From Deltaproteobacteria bacterium (GTDB lineage: Bacteria > Myxococcota_A > UBA9042 > DTJE01): a stretch of 64,000 bases of DNA. The position numbers and the translations under genes were made by a program. Numbering within the stretch: the stretch's first letter is position 1; the number at the start of each line of letters is the position of its first letter. The notes under the pieces are model-generated. The model saw only the letters and a program-made list of their open reading frames with translations, made no database searches and was not told the origin of the DNA. Where the stretch lies: the NCBI GenBank assembly GCA_029547805.1, contig JAKPOP010000001.1:62001-126000 (forward strand). Direction: 5' to 3'. Of this stretch, positions 633-7,733 are shown in pieces.

Positions 633-1271
633 TCACTCGGTCACGGGAGGCCCCATCATGCGGTCGGCCATCTCCACGACGTGACGGCGCACCGACGAGA
701 GGTGGTCCAGCACCGTCACGAAGGCCGAGGACGACCGGGGCACGCAGATCCCCAGGATCAGGCGTTCCAGGTGCCCGTCGGCGATCTCGTCGGTCCGGGC
801 ATCGAGCTGCCGGGCCGTCTCCAGGAGGTGGCGATGCATGGCCGGGTTCCAGGTCCGTACCAGGTCCCGGAGGGCCCGGAGCACCTCCAGGGTCCCGTCG
901 GCCAGCATCGCGAACTCCTGCCGGGCCCGGTCCGTGAACGAAAGCCCCTCCTCCCGCACGAGCCGCACGACGTCCACCAGCGCGTCCATGTGGTCCGCCA
1001 GGCGCTCCAGGTGCCCCGGGAGCGTCAGCAGGGACCTGGTGGCGAGGTCCGACCCCCGGAGGGCGGCATGCTCCTCCAGGATCCGGGCCGTCAGGTCTCG
1101 GGCCCGCTGCCGCAGGTCGCGACCCAGGGCCTCGGCGTGCAGGAGGTCCTGTTCGTCCAGGCGGCGGAATCCCCGGCGGGCCGTCTCGGCCTGTTCCAGC
1201 GCCTGGGTGCATGCCTGGTGGATGGCCGCTTCGAGGGACTGGGTGAGTCCCGCCGGTCGCCGGGTCTCCAT
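633..1271 (-). CDS. PhoU-like helical protein
   Basis: A 212-residue, almost entirely helical protein with the heptad-rich layout of PhoU: two three-helix repeats, with acidic stretches (LERLADHMDALVDVV near the middle, LDARTDEIADGHLERLILG later) resembling the metal-contacting helices. PhoU-domain proteins usually tune phosphate transport or PhoR signalling, or sit with Na/phosphate cotransporters. No pst, phoR or nptA gene is nearby, so its partner is unknown. The start at 1271 has a very good Shine-Dalgarno (AGGAGG, five bases upstream). It lies 42 bases after the helicase gene on the same strand and could be co-transcribed with it. Moderate confidence: resemblance of fold pattern rather than a diagnostic motif. 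Confidence 0.6.
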   Translation of the reverse strand: METRRPAGLTQSLEAAIHQACTQALEQAETARRGFRRLDEQDLLHAEALGRDLRQRARDLTARILEEHAALRGSDLATRSLLTLPGHLERLADHMDALVDVVRLVREEGLSFTDRARQEFAMLADGTLEVLRALRDLVRTWNPAMHRHLLETARQLDARTDEIADGHLERLILGICVPRSSSAFVTVLDHLSSVRRHVVEMADRMMGPPVTE

Positions 1272-1313: not shown

Positions 1314-2942
1314 TCAGTCGCCGGAAGCCGTCCGACGGGGGGCCGGAAAACCGGCCTGCAGGCGGTCCGGGAGCCAGCGGCTGAAGGGATGCCGGGAGGT
1401 GCGCCGGTGGAAGGACCCATCCTCGGCGTCGGGGCCCGAGGGGACCACCCGGACCAGGTCCCCGCTCCGGGAGGCCACCTGCCAGGACCGGCCTCCCAGG
1501 GAGATCCGCCCCTCGGCGACCATGTCGGCGGGCACCTGGCCCAGGGGGCGCCCGGTGGCCGCATCGGCCACCTGGACCAGACGGTCATCCCCGAGGTTGC
1601 TGTGGACCCGGCCCCGCTCCCCCAGGTCCATCAGGCGGGTCGAGGCCTGGACCTGTTCCACTCCCCGGGCCACCACCCACTCCAGTCGGATCAGGTGGTC
1701 CAGGATCTCCTCCAGGTCTTCCCGGGGGCCCATGCCCTGCAGGATGTCGAGCAGTTCCCGGCGGCCCACCCCCTGGCGGCGTCCGTAGAGGATCGAGAAG
1801 ACCTGCTGCACGGCCACCGCCGGCGCCAGGTGGCTCTCGCTCTCGGGCTCCGGTGGCGGCCGTCCCAGGTCCCGGTTCAGGTCCGAGAACCGCTGGCGGT
1901 CCTCGTCGCTCTCGACGATGCCGATGGCCCGCAGGCCCTGGCGCCGGCGGCACCCGCGTCCCACCCGCTGGATGAACGAGGCCGCCGACTCGGGGGCCCC
2001 CACCAGCACCACCGCGTCCACATTGCCGACGTCCACGCCCCATTCCAGGGTGGAGGTGGCCACCATGAGGCAGGCGTCGTAGCGTCGGAACGCCCGCTCG
2101 GCCTCCTCCCGGGCCTTCCGGGAGAGGCTCGCGTGGTGCACCAGCACCCGCTCCGGGGGCCAGGGCCCCCGCCGGGCCAGGGCCCGGGCCACTTCCTCGG
2201 TCCGTCGCCGGGAGTTGCAGAACCACAGGGCCTTGGACAGGCCCTCCTGGCGCAGCAACCGCACCGCCTCTTCCAGGTCCTGGGCGATCCGGAAGTCCAG
2301 GGGACGGGCCTCCCCCGCCTCCAGCACCGGCACCGGGTGGCCGAAGAGCCAACCTCCCAGGGCCTCGGGGTCCCCCACCGTGGCCGAGAGGGCGACCCGC
2401 TGCACGGGCCCCCGACAATGCCACCGCGCGATCCTCCGGATCAGGATCCGCGCCTGTTCTCCCCGGCAGGTCCGGTGGAGCAGGTGGACCTCGTCCAGCA
2501 CCAGGGCGGCCAGCCCGGCGAAACGGTCGGGATAGCGGCAGAGGATCGAGTCCAGGGACTCGGGGGTCGTGACCAGCAGGTCGGTCTCCCGGCCGGCCAG
2601 GTCCGCCGGGCGATCTCCGGTTCGCAGGGCCACCCGGATGCCCAGGGTGCCGCAGGGCTCCCGCAGGCGCATCTCGATGTCGTTGGCCAGGGCCCGGGTG
2701 GGCACCACGTAGAGGAACCGGGGACCGGGGGTACGGGCGCTCCGGATCAGGCGCTGGCACAGGGGGGCGACGACCGCCTCGGTCTTTCCCGAGGCCGCCG
2801 GGGCCACCACCAGGGCATCTCCGCCGGCGGCCAGGGCCGGGATCGCGACGCGCTGGATGGGGGTGGGCCGGGCGAACCGCCCCAGGAAGGCCTCCCAGGT
2901 GTCCGGGATCACCTGCTGCAGGCCCCGGGCCTCCTCGGTCAC
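1314..2942 (-). CDS. DEAD/DEAH-box helicase, Lhr-like, last gene of the ATPase-helicase operon
   Basis: A 542-residue superfamily 2 helicase. Motifs in order: Q-motif-like PTPIQ (27-30), Walker A APAASGKT (47-54), TPES (127-129 region), a DEVH box (150-153), SAT (186-188), and a motif VI QRVGRGCRR (325-333). The WGVDVGNVD segment near 301-309 and the C-terminal extension of about 200 residues are like the Lhr / BrxHI type, although shorter than full Lhr. The GTG start at 2942 overlaps the stop of the upstream ATPase gene as GTGA, so the two are translationally coupled. Predicted to move on DNA or RNA using ATP. Partner ATPases of the BREX type upstream suggest a nucleic-acid surveillance or defence role; this is inference. 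Confidence 0.85.
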   Translation of the reverse strand: MTEEARGLQQVIPDTWEAFLGRFARPTPIQRVAIPALAAGGDALVVAPAASGKTEAVVAPLCQRLIRSARTPGPRFLYVVPTRALANDIEMRLREPCGTLGIRVALRTGDRPADLAGRETDLLVTTPESLDSILCRYPDRFAGLAALVLDEVHLLHRTCRGEQARILIRRIARWHCRGPVQRVALSATVGDPEALGGWLFGHPVPVLEAGEARPLDFRIAQDLEEAVRLLRQEGLSKALWFCNSRRRTEEVARALARRGPWPPERVLVHHASLSRKAREEAERAFRRYDACLMVATSTLEWGVDVGNVDAVVLVGAPESAASFIQRVGRGCRRRQGLRAIGIVESDEDRQRFSDLNRDLGRPPPEPESESHLAPAVAVQQVFSILYGRRQGVGRRELLDILQGMGPREDLEEILDHLIRLEWVVARGVEQVQASTRLMDLGERGRVHSNLGDDRLVQVADAATGRPLGQVPADMVAEGRISLGGRSWQVASRSGDLVRVVPSGPDAEDGSFHRRTSRHPFSRWLPDRLQAGFPAPRRTASGD

Positions 2943-4441
2943 CCCACGGCCTCCATCACCATGGCCTCCACGTCCTCCTGGGGATAGAACCGCAGGAAGT
3001 CCAGCACCTCCACCACCGCCTTCAGGAAGGTCCGGACCGTGGAGATCCGATCCGTCGTCGCCAGGGTCCGGAAGACCCGCTGGGCCACCGGCCGGGGCAG
3101 CGAGGCCTCGTGGACCTGCCGGTAGGCCTCGAGGATGCGATCGAAGAGCACCTCCAGTTCCGACATGCTCAGGACGTCCAGGGAGATCCGGGGGATCGTC
3201 TCCCGGGCCCGCTGGAACTCCTCCTGCAGGGAACCGGGTGTCAACGCGAAGACCACCTTGAGCCGGGCCGGGATTCCCGCCGTGTAGGGCACCGGGTTGT
3301 GACCGCTGTAGATCAGCCGGGTGCGCCGCCCCATCGTGAGCCCGTTCCGGTCCCGTTCCTCTTCCAGCAGGTCCGGGTCGTCATTGGCCGCCAGCACGAG
3401 CCCCCGAAAGAAGTTGACCCCCCGGAGGGCCTGGTAGTGGTAGAGGACGTTCTGGGCCACCTCCGCCTCGTCCAGCAGCACCAGGAGACCCCGGAACTGG
3501 AGCAGTTCCGCGAAGCCCATCGCCAGCGCCGTCAGCAGGTTCACGTAGAGGTTCGCGCAGGTGCTGTAGCCGTGCAAGGTGGGGCCTCGGGAGGTCCCTG
3601 TCTCCCGCCCCTCGATCCAGTCCCAGTCCTCGGGACGGGCCTGGCCCGCGGCAACCCGGTCCAGGAAGGGCCCCAGGACCCAGTGGTCCCCCAGCAGGGC
3701 CTTCCTCCCCGGGGCCCGGGCCATCTCCTCGATCAGCGTCCGGAGGTCCATCCGGACCCCGTTCCGAGACGCCTGGAACCGGGAGGCCATCTGGCGCCAG
3801 ACCTTCTTGGGGAAGGCTGCCGAGGCCTCCGAGGGGTCGAAGCCCGCCAGGGTCACCACGTACCCCTCTCGCTGGGCCTGGTGGGCCATCCAGGCCAGCA
3901 GGTGGCTCTTCCCGGCGCCATACTGACCCTCGACGAGCAGGGCCCCTTCGGTCTCGTTGGCGAGGAAGCGGTCCATCGCCCGGATCTCCTCCTCCCGCCC
4001 GACGGTCCAGTGCTCCACCTGGGCCGTGGGGACGATCCCCAGGCGGAAGGACTCCAGGGCCGACGCCAGGAAGGTCGGGGCCCCCTCTCGTGGGGGTCGG
4101 ACCTGTGGAGTGGGTCTCTGTGCCCGCCGTGCCGGTCGGGCCCTGGACCGCGCCTCCGGGGGCCGAGACGTCGGTCCTCGTCGGGGGCCTTCTTCGGGTT
4201 CGATTCCCAGCAGGCGCAGGATGGCATCCAGCGTGGCCCCGCGATGGGAGGGGGGCGGCGGCGGGGGCTCCCCAAGGAGCCGCAAGCCGGTCCCTTCGGC
4301 CTGGAGCCTCCGACCGGGGACCCAGATCTGTGCCGTCGAGAAGGAGACCAGGACCTCGTGGCCCCCCAGGCCCACGCCGATCACGGTGCCCCGACCATGG
4401 ACCGGGTGGCGCACGTGATCCCCTTTCCGAAACGGTTTCAC
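2939..4441 (-). CDS. BREX-type P-loop ATPase (DUF2791/BrxC-BrxD-like) with N-terminal beta domain
   Basis: About 500 residues. Residues 5-50 (GDHVRHPVHGRGTVIGV) look like a small SH3/CarD-type beta barrel, a fold also found appended to helicases and RNA-polymerase-binding proteins. A Pro/Arg-rich linker (55-120) follows, then a P-loop ATPase with Walker A GQYGAGKS (172-179) and Walker B LLVLLDEAE (319-327). The glycine-rich loop and the LLDEAE box are those of the BREX DUF2791 family. The GTG at 4441 gives a GTGA overlap with the gene before, matching the other two junctions in the operon; an ATG at 4453 is also possible. It is the second of two paralogous ATPases here, and differs from the first by the extra N-terminal domain. 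Confidence 0.75.
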   Translation of the reverse strand: MKPFRKGDHVRHPVHGRGTVIGVGLGGHEVLVSFSTAQIWVPGRRLQAEGTGLRLLGEPPPPPPSHRGATLDAILRLLGIEPEEGPRRGPTSRPPEARSRARPARRAQRPTPQVRPPREGAPTFLASALESFRLGIVPTAQVEHWTVGREEEIRAMDRFLANETEGALLVEGQYGAGKSHLLAWMAHQAQREGYVVTLAGFDPSEASAAFPKKVWRQMASRFQASRNGVRMDLRTLIEEMARAPGRKALLGDHWVLGPFLDRVAAGQARPEDWDWIEGRETGTSRGPTLHGYSTCANLYVNLLTALAMGFAELLQFRGLLVLLDEAEVAQNVLYHYQALRGVNFFRGLVLAANDDPDLLEEERDRNGLTMGRRTRLIYSGHNPVPYTAGIPARLKVVFALTPGSLQEEFQRARETIPRISLDVLSMSELEVLFDRILEAYRQVHEASLPRPVAQRVFRTLATTDRISTVRTFLKAVVEVLDFLRFYPQEDVEAMVMEAVG

Positions 4442-5772
4442 AGGTCCTCCCATGGGTCCTCGTCCAGTTCGATCGCCTGGGTCTTCCCGATTCCCGGACC
4501 CAGGGCGGGCGGCTCCCGGTGCGGCAGGACCAGCGACTCGGCGAGGGCCTGGTCCGGTTCCAGCGCCGGGTCCGCCCGCAGGTGGTGCAGCCCCTTCACG
4601 ACCGCCTGCACGAAGAGGCGCTTGTACCCGATGTCGCCGAAGGCCAGTTGGGAGGCCTCCTGGGCCAGCAGGTCCACGAGTCGATCCGCCGGTTCCCGGG
4701 GCAACTGGCAGGAATAGGCCCGCTGATAGACCCGGATCATCTTGTTGCCGATCTCGCGGAGCAGCGTCTCGGGGGCCTGGGTCATCCGCTCCAGCCGCAG
4801 GGTCACCCCGGTGGGATTCGTGAAGTCGAAGACGCTCTGGATGCGCTGGCGCAGGGCCTCGTAGGCCGGGCTGCGCCCCTCGACCAGGAACTGCTCGGTG
4901 GGGACCGCGTAGAAGATCATCACGCTGGCGAAGGCCGAGGTCCCGCACTGGTCCACCAGTTCGCGGAGATTTGCGAGCATCATCTCCTTCTGCTTCGACG
5001 TCATCGCGCCGGCCTGCTCCGCCTCGTCGAAGAGGATCACCAGACCCCGGAACCGCAGGTGGCGCAGCAGGGTCACGAGGCTTCGGAGCGTCGCGAAGGC
5101 CTGTCCCCGCTCGATGGGCTGGAGGATCCCCGCCGCCCCGTGGCGCACCCGGTCATAGCCGTCCAGCGTCAGGTACTGGACCATCTGGTCGAAGGTGTCC
5201 AGGTCGTCCCGGGAGAGGGCCTCCAGGGCCCCCCGGACCGCCCGTCCGAAGTTGGGATTCTCGAGCCCTCGGGTCACGTCTGCGATCACCGCCTGCAACC
5301 GCTGGTCCAGGCCCCCCTCCTGGGCCTCCTCGGCCGCGAGGGCCTCCACCAGCGTCGCATGGACATGCCGCAGAAAGGGGCCGATCCCCCGCTCGCCCCC
5401 CTGGAGCAGCTCGTCCGGGGACAGGGGCCGCATGAGGTGGGTCACGACCGCCCGATAGATCTTCTCCAGCCGGTAGAAGGGCGACGAGTCCTGGGAGAGG
5501 GCGCAGTAGGACACCAGGAAGTCGTGCTTCCAGGCCAGTTCCCGGATGCTGTAGAGGAAGTGGGTCTTGCCGCCGCCGTAGGCCCCGACCACCACCTTGA
5601 AGGAGGCCCCGCCGTCCCGGAGGAAGGTCCGGAAGTAGTCCTCCTCCAGCACCCGCAGCGTGTCGTCCAGCCCGGCGGAGAAGAACTGGAAGCCCCACTC
5701 GGGCGGCGTGCCGGTGCTGCCCACGACCTCGATGATGTGCCGGGCCTGGCGGGACGTGAGGGTGTCGATCAT
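4438..5772 (-). CDS. BREX-type P-loop ATPase (BrxD-like)
   Basis: A 444-residue ATPase with Walker A GAYGGGKT (63-70) and Walker B LVILFDEAEQ (244-253). The opening IIEVVGSTGTPPEWG, the GGGKTHFLY loop and the long helical C-terminus are those of BrxD and related BREX system ATP-binding proteins. BrxD partners the BrxHI helicase in BREX type 2, and a related ATPase-helicase pair occurs in Shango. Here it stands with a second ATPase and an Lhr-like helicase, without a PglX methylase or PglZ phosphatase in the window. The ATG at 5772 overlaps the preceding stop as ATGA. Expected to be cytosolic and possibly oligomeric. Its biological job is not established by sequence. Confidence 0.8.
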   Translation of the reverse strand: MIDTLTSRQARHIIEVVGSTGTPPEWGFQFFSAGLDDTLRVLEEDYFRTFLRDGGASFKVVVGAYGGGKTHFLYSIRELAWKHDFLVSYCALSQDSSPFYRLEKIYRAVVTHLMRPLSPDELLQGGERGIGPFLRHVHATLVEALAAEEAQEGGLDQRLQAVIADVTRGLENPNFGRAVRGALEALSRDDLDTFDQMVQYLTLDGYDRVRHGAAGILQPIERGQAFATLRSLVTLLRHLRFRGLVILFDEAEQAGAMTSKQKEMMLANLRELVDQCGTSAFASVMIFYAVPTEQFLVEGRSPAYEALRQRIQSVFDFTNPTGVTLRLERMTQAPETLLREIGNKMIRVYQRAYSCQLPREPADRLVDLLAQEASQLAFGDIGYKRLFVQAVVKGLHHLRADPALEPDQALAESLVLPHREPPALGPGIGKTQAIELDEDPWEDL

Positions 5773-6623
5773 CGTGCCTCCTCCCGGACCTTCAGGAAGG
5801 CGATCGTGGCGCAGTGGGCCCCATCGCCGGTCCGGCCCCGGGGAATCCAGAGGTGGTCCTCGGGGCGGCGCGTCTGGGCCATCGTGGCCGTGTCCAGGCG
5901 CATCTCCAGGTCCCCGAATCGCCGGTGTCGCAGGCGCCCCAGCAGGGCCCCGAACTGCAGTCGCCCGAAGGGCCGGTAGTGTTCCCGGACCGGGTCGGCG
6001 ACAAAGGCGGTGGCCTGGCGCGCGAAGGCCATCTCGACCATCACGGAGGCCAGGGGGACCCGCTCCCCCTCCGGCAGGCGTCGGCGCAGGCAGGCCATCC
6101 GGTAGGCCTCGTGGACCTCCCGGAGGGCCGCCTCCTCATCCAGCGACGTGCCGAAGAGGGCCTCGTCGGCGGCCTTCACGGTCTGCACGATCGCCTCGGG
6201 ATCGAGGGGGCACTCCCCGACCTTCTCCTGCCGGGGCCCCAGCCAGACCACGGCCTGGGGCTTGCGCCCCTGGACGAACTCCACCGTGAAGGCCGAGACC
6301 CGGAGCAGCGGCAACTGTCCCTGGACCGGGAGCCCGGCGTCCTGGAGCGCCACCGCGACGCGGCCCGCCAGCAGTGCCCGTTCCCGTTCCAGATTGCCGG
6401 TCGCCTGGTCCAGCAGGGCCTGCACGCGGTCCCGGGCCTCCTGGACCGAGGCGTCCACCGCCGGGACCTTCTGGAGGGCCTTCAGGGCCGACAGGCAGGC
6501 CTCCTGCAGATCAAAGAAGGACCCCTTGCCGGACCTCCCGAGGTCCTGGACCCTGCCCATGGCCCGGGTGGCTGCACCCAGGGCCGTCGCGGCCTTCTTC
6601 AGTCCCCCGATCACCTCTTCCAT
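5769..6623 (-). CDS. unknown protein, first gene of the ATPase-helicase operon
   Basis: A 284-residue protein I do not recognise. Residues 1-110 are strongly helical (heptads around LSALKALQKVPAVDASVQEARDRVQALLDQATGNLE read as coiled coil). Residues 115-150 look like beta strands (GRVAVALQDAGLP, LLRVSAFTVEFV, PQAVVWLG), and the C-terminal third is a mixed domain rich in Arg. No TerB, methylase, nuclease or phosphatase motif is visible, so it does not fill the expected slot of known BREX or Shango partners. Its stop overlaps the next start by ATGA, so it is translated in step with the ATPases. A GGGAGAGG Shine-Dalgarno precedes the ATG at 6623. It may be the sensor or structural subunit; this is speculation. 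Confidence 0.7.
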   Translation of the reverse strand: MEEVIGGLKKAATALGAATRAMGRVQDLGRSGKGSFFDLQEACLSALKALQKVPAVDASVQEARDRVQALLDQATGNLERERALLAGRVAVALQDAGLPVQGQLPLLRVSAFTVEFVQGRKPQAVVWLGPRQEKVGECPLDPEAIVQTVKAADEALFGTSLDEEAALREVHEAYRMACLRRRLPEGERVPLASVMVEMAFARQATAFVADPVREHYRPFGRLQFGALLGRLRHRRFGDLEMRLDTATMAQTRRPEDHLWIPRGRTGDGAHCATIAFLKVREEAR

Positions 6624-6666: not shown

Positions 6667-7683
6667 TCACGTCCCGGACGCGGGCCCGGTCCAGGACTCC
6701 AGCGCCGACCGCCATCGGGTCCCGAAGACGCGGTCCAGCGTCTCTTCCAGGTCCCGGGGCACCGGGGCGGTCACGGTCCGGAGGCTTCCGTCGGCCGGGT
6801 GCCGGAACTGCAGCGACCAGGCATGGAGCGCCTGGCGTTCCATTCGTCGCAGGGCCTCCACCTCCTCCTCGGGGCGGCTCCCGGGTCGGGGCCATCCCCG
6901 GCCATAGACCCGGTCCCCGACCACCGGATGCCCCGCCTCGGCCAGATGCACCCGGATCTGATGGGTTCGGCCGGTCTTCGGATGGGCCATCACGAGCGCG
7001 CACAGACCTCCCCGGATCACGGTCCGCACCTCGGTGACCGCCTCCCGCCCCTCCCGGACCCGCCCCGTGAACTGCTTCCGGTCCCCGGGGCGCCGGCCGA
7101 AGGCGCTCCGGATCACCTGGTGGTCCGGCGTGGCGGCCCCCAGGACCAGGGCCAGGTAGGTCTTCCGGATGGTCCGGTCCTGGAACTGGCGGCTCAGGGC
7201 CAGATGGGCCCGGTCCGTCTTCGCCAGCAGCAACACCCCCGAGGTGTCCTTGTCCAGCCGGTGGACCAGCCCCGGGCGGTCCTCTCCCCCCAGCGTCGAA
7301 AAGGACCGTCCCGAGGCAAGCAGCCGGTTCACCAGCGTGCCGCTCCGGTGCCCGGCCCCCGGGTGCACCACCACCCCGGGACGTTTCGCCAGCGCCAGCA
7401 CCTCCTCGTCCTCGTAGAGGATGTCCAGGTCCCCGGCCTGGGGTTCCAGCGGGGGACGATCCGGTTCCGGCGGCACCTCCACCTCGATCGTCGCTCCGGC
7501 CGGGACCCGGAAGCCCCGGGGCCGTCTTCGACCGTCTACCAGCACCCGCTGCTGCTCGATCAGGCGCTGGGCAGCGGAGCGGCTCAGGAAGGGGAGTCGG
7601 GCGGCAATCAGCACGTCCAGTCGCTCCCCGGCCTGGGTGGCCTCCACCTCGATCCGGTGGACCGACGGCGATTCGGGGGTCAT
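6667..7683 (-). CDS. rluD: RluD-type 23S rRNA pseudouridine synthase
   Basis: 338 residues. An S4-like RNA-binding domain occupies about 15-70 and the RluA-family catalytic core follows, with the signature HRLDKDTSG (141-149) whose Asp144 is the nucleophile, and the later GRTHQIRVH motif. RluD isomerises uridines in helix 69 of 23S rRNA; other RluA-family members have different targets, so the exact site is not certain. The longer frame starts at 7725, but that ATG sits on the predicted transcription start. The ATG at 7683 has a GGAGG nine bases upstream and was chosen. Only 43 bases separate its stop from the next gene, so it may lead the ATPase-helicase operon. Confidence 0.85.
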   Translation of the reverse strand: MTPESPSVHRIEVEATQAGERLDVLIAARLPFLSRSAAQRLIEQQRVLVDGRRRPRGFRVPAGATIEVEVPPEPDRPPLEPQAGDLDILYEDEEVLALAKRPGVVVHPGAGHRSGTLVNRLLASGRSFSTLGGEDRPGLVHRLDKDTSGVLLLAKTDRAHLALSRQFQDRTIRKTYLALVLGAATPDHQVIRSAFGRRPGDRKQFTGRVREGREAVTEVRTVIRGGLCALVMAHPKTGRTHQIRVHLAEAGHPVVGDRVYGRGWPRPGSRPEEEVEALRRMERQALHAWSLQFRHPADGSLRTVTAPVPRDLEETLDRVFGTRWRSALESWTGPASGT

Positions 7684-7733
7684 GGCGCGGGGCCTCCGAT
7701 TGCGTCCATGGCGGCTTTTCGCCATGATTTGCC

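Follow-up and report, generated by a model that had tools for sequence, protein, structure and literature searches.

A conserved four-gene ATPase-helicase cassette of Myxococcota, related to the motor parts of BREX and Shango yet distinct from both

The closest described counterparts of the locus analyzed here are the ATPase-helicase arms of two anti-phage systems, BREX type 2 and Shango. BREX type 2 includes a BrxD-family ATPase and the SF2 helicase BrxHI, and according to one proposal BrxD may act as the loader of BrxHI (PMC12839542). Shango is a TerB-ATPase-helicase set (SngA, SngB and SngC) for which protection has been shown experimentally (PMC10250203). The helicases BrxHI, SngC, DruE and DpdJ potentially make up a distinct clade that is defined by antiphage functions (PMC12278908). 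Here, we analyze a cassette of four genes, A to D, in a 64,000-nucleotide stretch of Myxococcota DNA (the window), and show that A-B-C-D is a real conserved unit that is related to the BREX and Shango motor parts yet distinct from both. No description of the set was found in the open-access literature searched or in PADLOC 2023, with subscription papers and later defense catalogs outside the scope of that search.

The initial annotation of the window had described a four-gene operon with a 284-residue leading protein, joined by ATGA or GTGA overlaps and lying 43 bases behind rluD, and this description held fully: the genes are co-directional and translationally coupled, and their reading frames, lengths and joints all match (Table 1). 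The A/B overlap is ATGA, the B/C and C/D overlaps are GTGA, and 43 bp separate the end of the upstream rluD from the start of A. Gene C starts at GTG, with a rival in-frame ATG 12 bases upstream; C of the sister genome likewise starts at GTG with a four-base overlap, which speaks against the upstream ATG. The GC content of the operon equals that of its surroundings (71.5% versus 71.0% for the window), and no tRNA genes were found within 16 kb around it. Within the window's family, rluD usually lies directly upstream of A where upstream DNA is available, and this same-strand linkage is confined to that family. The PhoU-like gene downstream of D was considered as a cassette part and dropped, since its sole other carrier is the sister genome (L046/L047).

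Table 1. The four cassette genes and their immediate neighbors, with positions counted from the first letter of the window
Feature	Position	Strand	Description
gene A	5769..6623	-	284 aa; orphan family, the cassette's signature protein
gene B	4438..5772	-	444 aa; first BrxD-like AAA+ ATPase, Walker A and B intact
gene C	2939..4441	-	500 aa; second BrxD-like AAA+ ATPase, N-terminal small beta-barrel and low-confidence linker
gene D	1314..2942	-	542 aa; SF2 DEAD/DEAH helicase, without the C-terminal part of BrxHI
rluD-type pseudouridine synthase	6667..7725	-	PF00849 and S4; context only, outside the cassette
PhoU-like protein	633..1271	-	weak PhoU match (E=0.02); context, 42 bp downstream of D

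Two further claims, that the operon lacks the usual BREX or Shango partners and that its arrangement is a distinct one, also held. A PF08665 search of the window's own genome found no PglZ (this model can be weak on some PglZ proteins, one of which scores 24.4 bits in L154), and that genome contains no further PF10923 proteins beyond B and C, although PglY-type DUF6079 proteins were not covered by the search. Neither a PglX methyltransferase nor a PglW kinase lies within the operon, to which that search was limited. No TerB domain was found near the operon, and two weak TerB matches on other contigs come without a further BrxD-type ATPase to pair with. Like BREX type 2, the cassette places a BrxD-family ATPase directly before a BrxHI-type SF2 helicase, in a proposed loader-helicase relation; unlike BREX type 2, it has two ATPases rather than one along with the orphan protein A, its B lies outside the BrxD clade, its D lacks the C-terminal part of BrxHI in the window's lineage, and neither PglZ in the genome nor any BREX partner in the operon accompanies it. 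With Shango it shares a compact operon that combines a leading protein, an ATPase and a helicase without an evident nuclease, but neither sequence nor fold searches identify A as a TerB protein, its length of about 280 aa compares with 579-1155 aa for the TerB proteins seen, a second ATPase is present, and SngB occupies its own clade with B and C outside it. Moreover, other genomes contain BREX-2 or Shango loci in addition to the cassette, in one case with BREX-2 at the same locus. Neither of the two outcomes that would have refuted the initial annotation occurred: the set did not prove to be a known Shango or BREX subtype, and its genes are conserved together.

Across 379 Myxococcota genomes, A homologs occur in 65, a patchy distribution. 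By our tally, A is accompanied by a strong C (E about 1e-30 or better) in 59 genomes, six have A alone and three have C alone, giving a Fisher p of about 1e-58 for co-occurrence when kinship is ignored. Three of the A-only cases are contigs ending at B (G170, G175 and G222), and the other three have A in a different, SMC/HerA-type context (G060, G214 and G257); two of the C-only cases lie at contig ends (G009 and G277), and in the third, G021, a divergent candidate A sits at the expected place. At this last locus, in family f10 (L162:5950-9413), B and C are very divergent, the place of A is taken by a 328 aa protein, and D is not clearly recognizable; the locus may be a remote form of the cassette. 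In the window's own family, C is found in all 13 genomes and A in 12, the contig of the exception ending inside B. The order A-B-C-D is kept in families f1, f2, f3, f7 and f9 and in one of three f8 genomes, all of the same class, and in many families elsewhere in the phylum. Pairwise divergences of A, B, C and D correlate with r = 0.81-0.93, compared with at most 0.22 in shuffles.

Outside the phylum, our survey covered plasmid and phage records and did not extend to chromosomes. A tblastn search with B gave no match in phages and ten distant BrxD-like records in plasmids, two of which are complete A-B-C-D cassettes. One, on plasmid pDESTI.01 of Desulfomonile tiedjei, lies near an AbiE pair and a PD-(D/E)XK gene; the other, on a conjugative plasmid of Aulosira laxa, lies directly behind a BREX-2 PglZ-domain gene, BrxD and BrxHI. 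At the latter locus the BREX-2 helicase scores 929 bits with the BrxHI model and the cassette's D scores 326 bits, indicating two separate systems side by side. The two plasmid A proteins (279 residues) are 38% identical to each other and, searched within a small test set, match the A profile at 2e-23 and 4e-17, the D matches are at about 1e-115, and no A was detectable in the remaining plasmid records. Since the genes keep their order and adjacency in different Myxococcota families as well as on two plasmids from other phyla, the association of the four genes goes far beyond chance, and we consider their co-inheritance and kept order to be established. On a Deinococcus psychrotolerans plasmid (L144) we also observed two neighboring hypothetical-ATPase-helicase sets, whose helicases both have the same protein accession.

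That B and C are two BREX-type ATPases, as originally proposed, is confirmed by PF10923 (BrxC_BrxD) scores of 147 and 68 bits, respectively, both passing the curated Pfam cut-off of 22.2. With the BrxD equivalog model they reach 136 and 37 bits, both below its cut-off of 350. Walker residues are invariant across 21 members of B and among the aligned members of C. In a tree of 132 ATPase sequences, built with a quick method and deserving moderate trust, B forms one side of a branch (support 91), apart from a BrxD group linked to PglZ (97) and an SngB group linked to TerB (100). Pfam places TerB_N/TerB_C domains on the partners of the SngB group and PglZ in two BrxD-group loci, one of them just below cut-off. 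C proteins from Myxococcota cluster by themselves (96); those of the two plasmids fall outside this cluster, on a long branch.

One ATPase had been thought to have an SH3/CarD-like domain, for which sequence comparison of the C N-terminus gave no significant support (CarD E = 0.2); an AlphaFold2 model nonetheless shows a five-strand small barrel at residues 9-50 of C (pLDDT about 78-89), followed by a low-confidence linker and then the AAA+ module. The predicted structure of C has an ORC/Cdc6-like fold, a result that we show for C only. In a Foldseek search with C, Drosophila and yeast ORC subunits rank first and BrxC fifth (best E 4e-5), with TM-scores of 0.35-0.45 against ORC subunits and a modest 0.25-0.45 across the ORC/Cdc6 comparison. 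Among named records C has just two close relatives, in a Myxococcota MAG (81% identical) and an uncultured Myxococcales MAG, and viral contigs searched with the plasmid-type C gave no match. Separately, in three genomes of one genus, a C-type ATPase of ~660 aa that is extended at its N-terminus is encoded on its own, apart from the main cassette (L159:5965-7944, with copies in G063 and G079).

The initial annotation had described D as Lhr-like, a claim that we refine: D is nearer to BrxHI and SngC than to Lhr. It contains DEAD (110 bits) and Helicase_C (63 bits) domains, and matches BrxHI at 6e-81 over model positions 23-507 of 698 and SngC less strongly at 4e-60. D shares its SF2 core with the ligase-associated DEXH helicase/Lhr group, but this match (E 2e-53, 181 bits) is far below the cut-off of 850 and ends at residue 335, covering the helicase core only. 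Since the BrxHI match stops at model position 507, the C-terminal region of BrxHI is missing from D, whose length is 523-559 aa within the window's clade and, elsewhere, mostly 654-735 aa. Helicase motifs I, II, III and VI (GKT, DExH, SAT-like and QRxGRGxRR) are invariant in 18 members.

D is absent beside C in two f8 genomes and in f41, f30 (G106) and f19 (G102). All of these genomes except G136 have a strong D ortholog elsewhere (E 1e-104 to 1e-202), and this retention of a strong unlinked D suggests a common function rather than chance neighbors. In G015, G072 and G241, A-B-C is present and D was not found; the only BrxHI-type helicases in these genomes lie in BrxD-containing loci. In a single case, an unlinked D adjoins an MrfA/Hrq1-like helicase gene, a DNA-repair-type neighbor (L170:3192-7903). 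We rejected MrfA as a repair link for D, since the MrfA zinc domain occurs in 11 of 13 family genomes regardless and the neighbor therefore discriminates nothing. Directly after D, or after C if D is absent, families f19, f41, f42 and f48 encode a protein of ~500-540 aa (L112:13796-15373, L117:571-2190, L172:5553-7139, L173-L175, L178, L179 and L124:8414-9925), with a SEC-C motif in one member and otherwise no family, which is likely a fifth cassette partner outside the window's family.

Protein A belongs to no family in Pfam, NCBIfam or PADLOC, with 60 members examined. Neither A nor its 59 relatives match a TerB model in Pfam or the SngA model in PADLOC, and matches of A to TetR_C and DrmC (E 0.04-0.05) are at chance level. 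AlphaFold2, given 60 diverse relatives, predicts the fold of A confidently (pLDDT 95.4): three long N-terminal helices are followed by a five-strand sheet and then by C-terminal helices and strands in winged-helix order; in most relatives the wing region contains an ATGGSTRxK...GQYY-type stretch. From this topology and sequence pattern, and without a structural match, we infer that the C-terminal part is winged-helix-like and that A is a likely DNA-binding adaptor, DNA binding itself not having been shown. A full-length Foldseek search of the PDB and of viral models gave no match at E<=0.001, and a profile search against PDB sequences turned up nothing beyond chance matches of the coiled-coil type.

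Three loci (L121, L133 and L138) carry A homologs without B, C or D, behind SMC/RecF-like and HerA/FtsK-like ATPases, with a Schlafen-domain protein next in one of them. These loci resemble PbeABCD/Dnd-type SMC and HerA operons, and share A with the cassette but contain other ATPases in place of B, C and D; A is a module common to another, defense-like operon. Families f3 and f14 encode a 720-790 aa protein directly upstream of A (L060:10108-12267 and L100:1908-4274), with a weak Helicase_C_3 match in one member; in f14, A and this upstream gene are separated from B-C-D, which sit on another contig.

The identified neighbors of Myxococcota cassettes are mostly housekeeping genes in stable, family-specific synteny: rluD, a LonB-like protease and an NAD kinase-like gene in f1, a tRNA synthetase and a PfkB kinase in f41, and an oligopeptidase and a PLD-domain enzyme in f19. 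When 50 sampled neighbors were scanned with PADLOC, the strong matches shown looked like housekeeping enzymes or kinases, aside from DndD/PbeC-type matches that we assign to A's SMC/HerA context. Ratios of dN/dS are 0.17-0.38 for the cassette genes and 0.16-0.24 for three neighbors; the cassette evolves like rluD and LonB save for A, the fastest of the four genes (0.38). Families f1, f8 and f41 hold together among both the B and the C proteins, and in both f3 groups with f14, which belongs to another class, indicating mostly vertical descent with some transfer. In the window's lineage, the cassette is chromosomal and inherited like a housekeeping gene, rather than behaving as an island-borne defense system.

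We propose, with modest confidence, that A-B-C-D encodes one DNA-processing machine in which an ORC/Cdc6-like ATPase pair loads a helicase, acting in genome maintenance or surveillance in the window's lineage. B and C would be ORC/Cdc6-type AAA+ ATPases, probably assembled into a mixed ring that would load or activate D on DNA, an inference that rests on no experiment or predicted complex. A would probably anchor the complex, placing its winged-helix-like C-terminal part on DNA and offering its long helical N-terminal part for protein contacts. The loader role proposed as a possibility for BrxD, extended to two ATPases plus an adaptor, offers the simplest explanation of the cassette, which encodes no recognizable nuclease, methyltransferase or other effector. 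The likeness to ORC/Cdc6 initiators and loaders lies in the fold of C and in the two paralogous ATPases as a likely mixed ring; it is limited by the modest TM-scores and by the lack of an MCM-type helicase, the partner here being an SF2 helicase.

The initial annotation left open whether the locus serves defense or housekeeping, and its role remains unsettled: for the window's lineage, we lean slightly toward genome maintenance or domesticated surveillance over active phage defense. Several observations stand against the proposed reading, namely that D's closest helicases belong to a potentially distinct antiphage clade, that both cassettes outside the phylum are on plasmids with defense genes, that the distribution in the phylum is patchy, that transfer is seen between f3 and f14, and that G015, G072 and G241 lack D. 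A's rapid evolution might be that of a target-recognition part.

The strongest rival, which we judge the lesser probability of the two, is that the cassette is a new, active system against phages or plasmids that operates in the manner of Shango or of BREX-2 with its BrxD-BrxHI arm, in which A would recognize foreign DNA or its replication, B and C would load D, and D would dismantle or block the target. In its favor are D's best matches to BrxHI and SngC, the plasmid cassettes beside BREX-2 in Aulosira and near the AbiE pair in Desulfomonile, the patchy distribution, and the demonstrated protection by Shango. Against it are the mostly housekeeping neighbors and stable synteny in Myxococcota, the few defense-like strong matches among the 50 neighbors, and the near-universal presence of the cassette in the window's family under purifying selection. 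A second rival, an RNA or ribosome machine with D as an RNA helicase in rRNA maturation, draws on the rluD gene directly upstream in most of the window's family and on the ability of SF2 helicases to act on RNA. We consider it very improbable and drop it since the same-strand rluD linkage is specific to one family, with other neighbors elsewhere; moreover, C resembles DNA-loading ORC/Cdc6 proteins and the nearest helicases belong to DNA-directed systems. Finally, a BREX type 2 or Shango subtype or remnant under another name, suggested by the shared PF10923 membership of B and C and the nearness of D to BrxHI and SngC, is virtually ruled out by the absence of PglZ and further PF10923 proteins from the genome, the score of B far below the BrxD cut-off, the separate clades, and the genomes that have the cassette in addition to a BREX-2 or Shango locus, one of them with BREX-2 right beside it.

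Returning to the loader reading, the plasmid cassettes beside BREX-2 or Abi genes leave it possible that the same machine also serves defense, or derives from it. A bolder version, which we offer only as a possibility, is that the cassette represents an old, separate helicase-loading machine, made of a two-subunit ORC/Cdc6-like ATPase and a new-fold adaptor and devoted to maintenance in Myxococcota, and that the motor pairs of BREX-2 and Shango were recruited from it or arose in parallel.

The motor pairs BrxD-BrxHI of BREX-2 and SngB-SngC of Shango are conserved, and their mechanism is not known. A standalone chromosomal relative that lacks modification or nuclease genes isolates this motor, and makes the loader hypothesis directly testable. 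If the cassette's role is defense, it would be a new system, and the defense library searched (PADLOC) lacks its signature protein; if its role is genome maintenance, it would tie the helicases of bacterial defense to a housekeeping machine.
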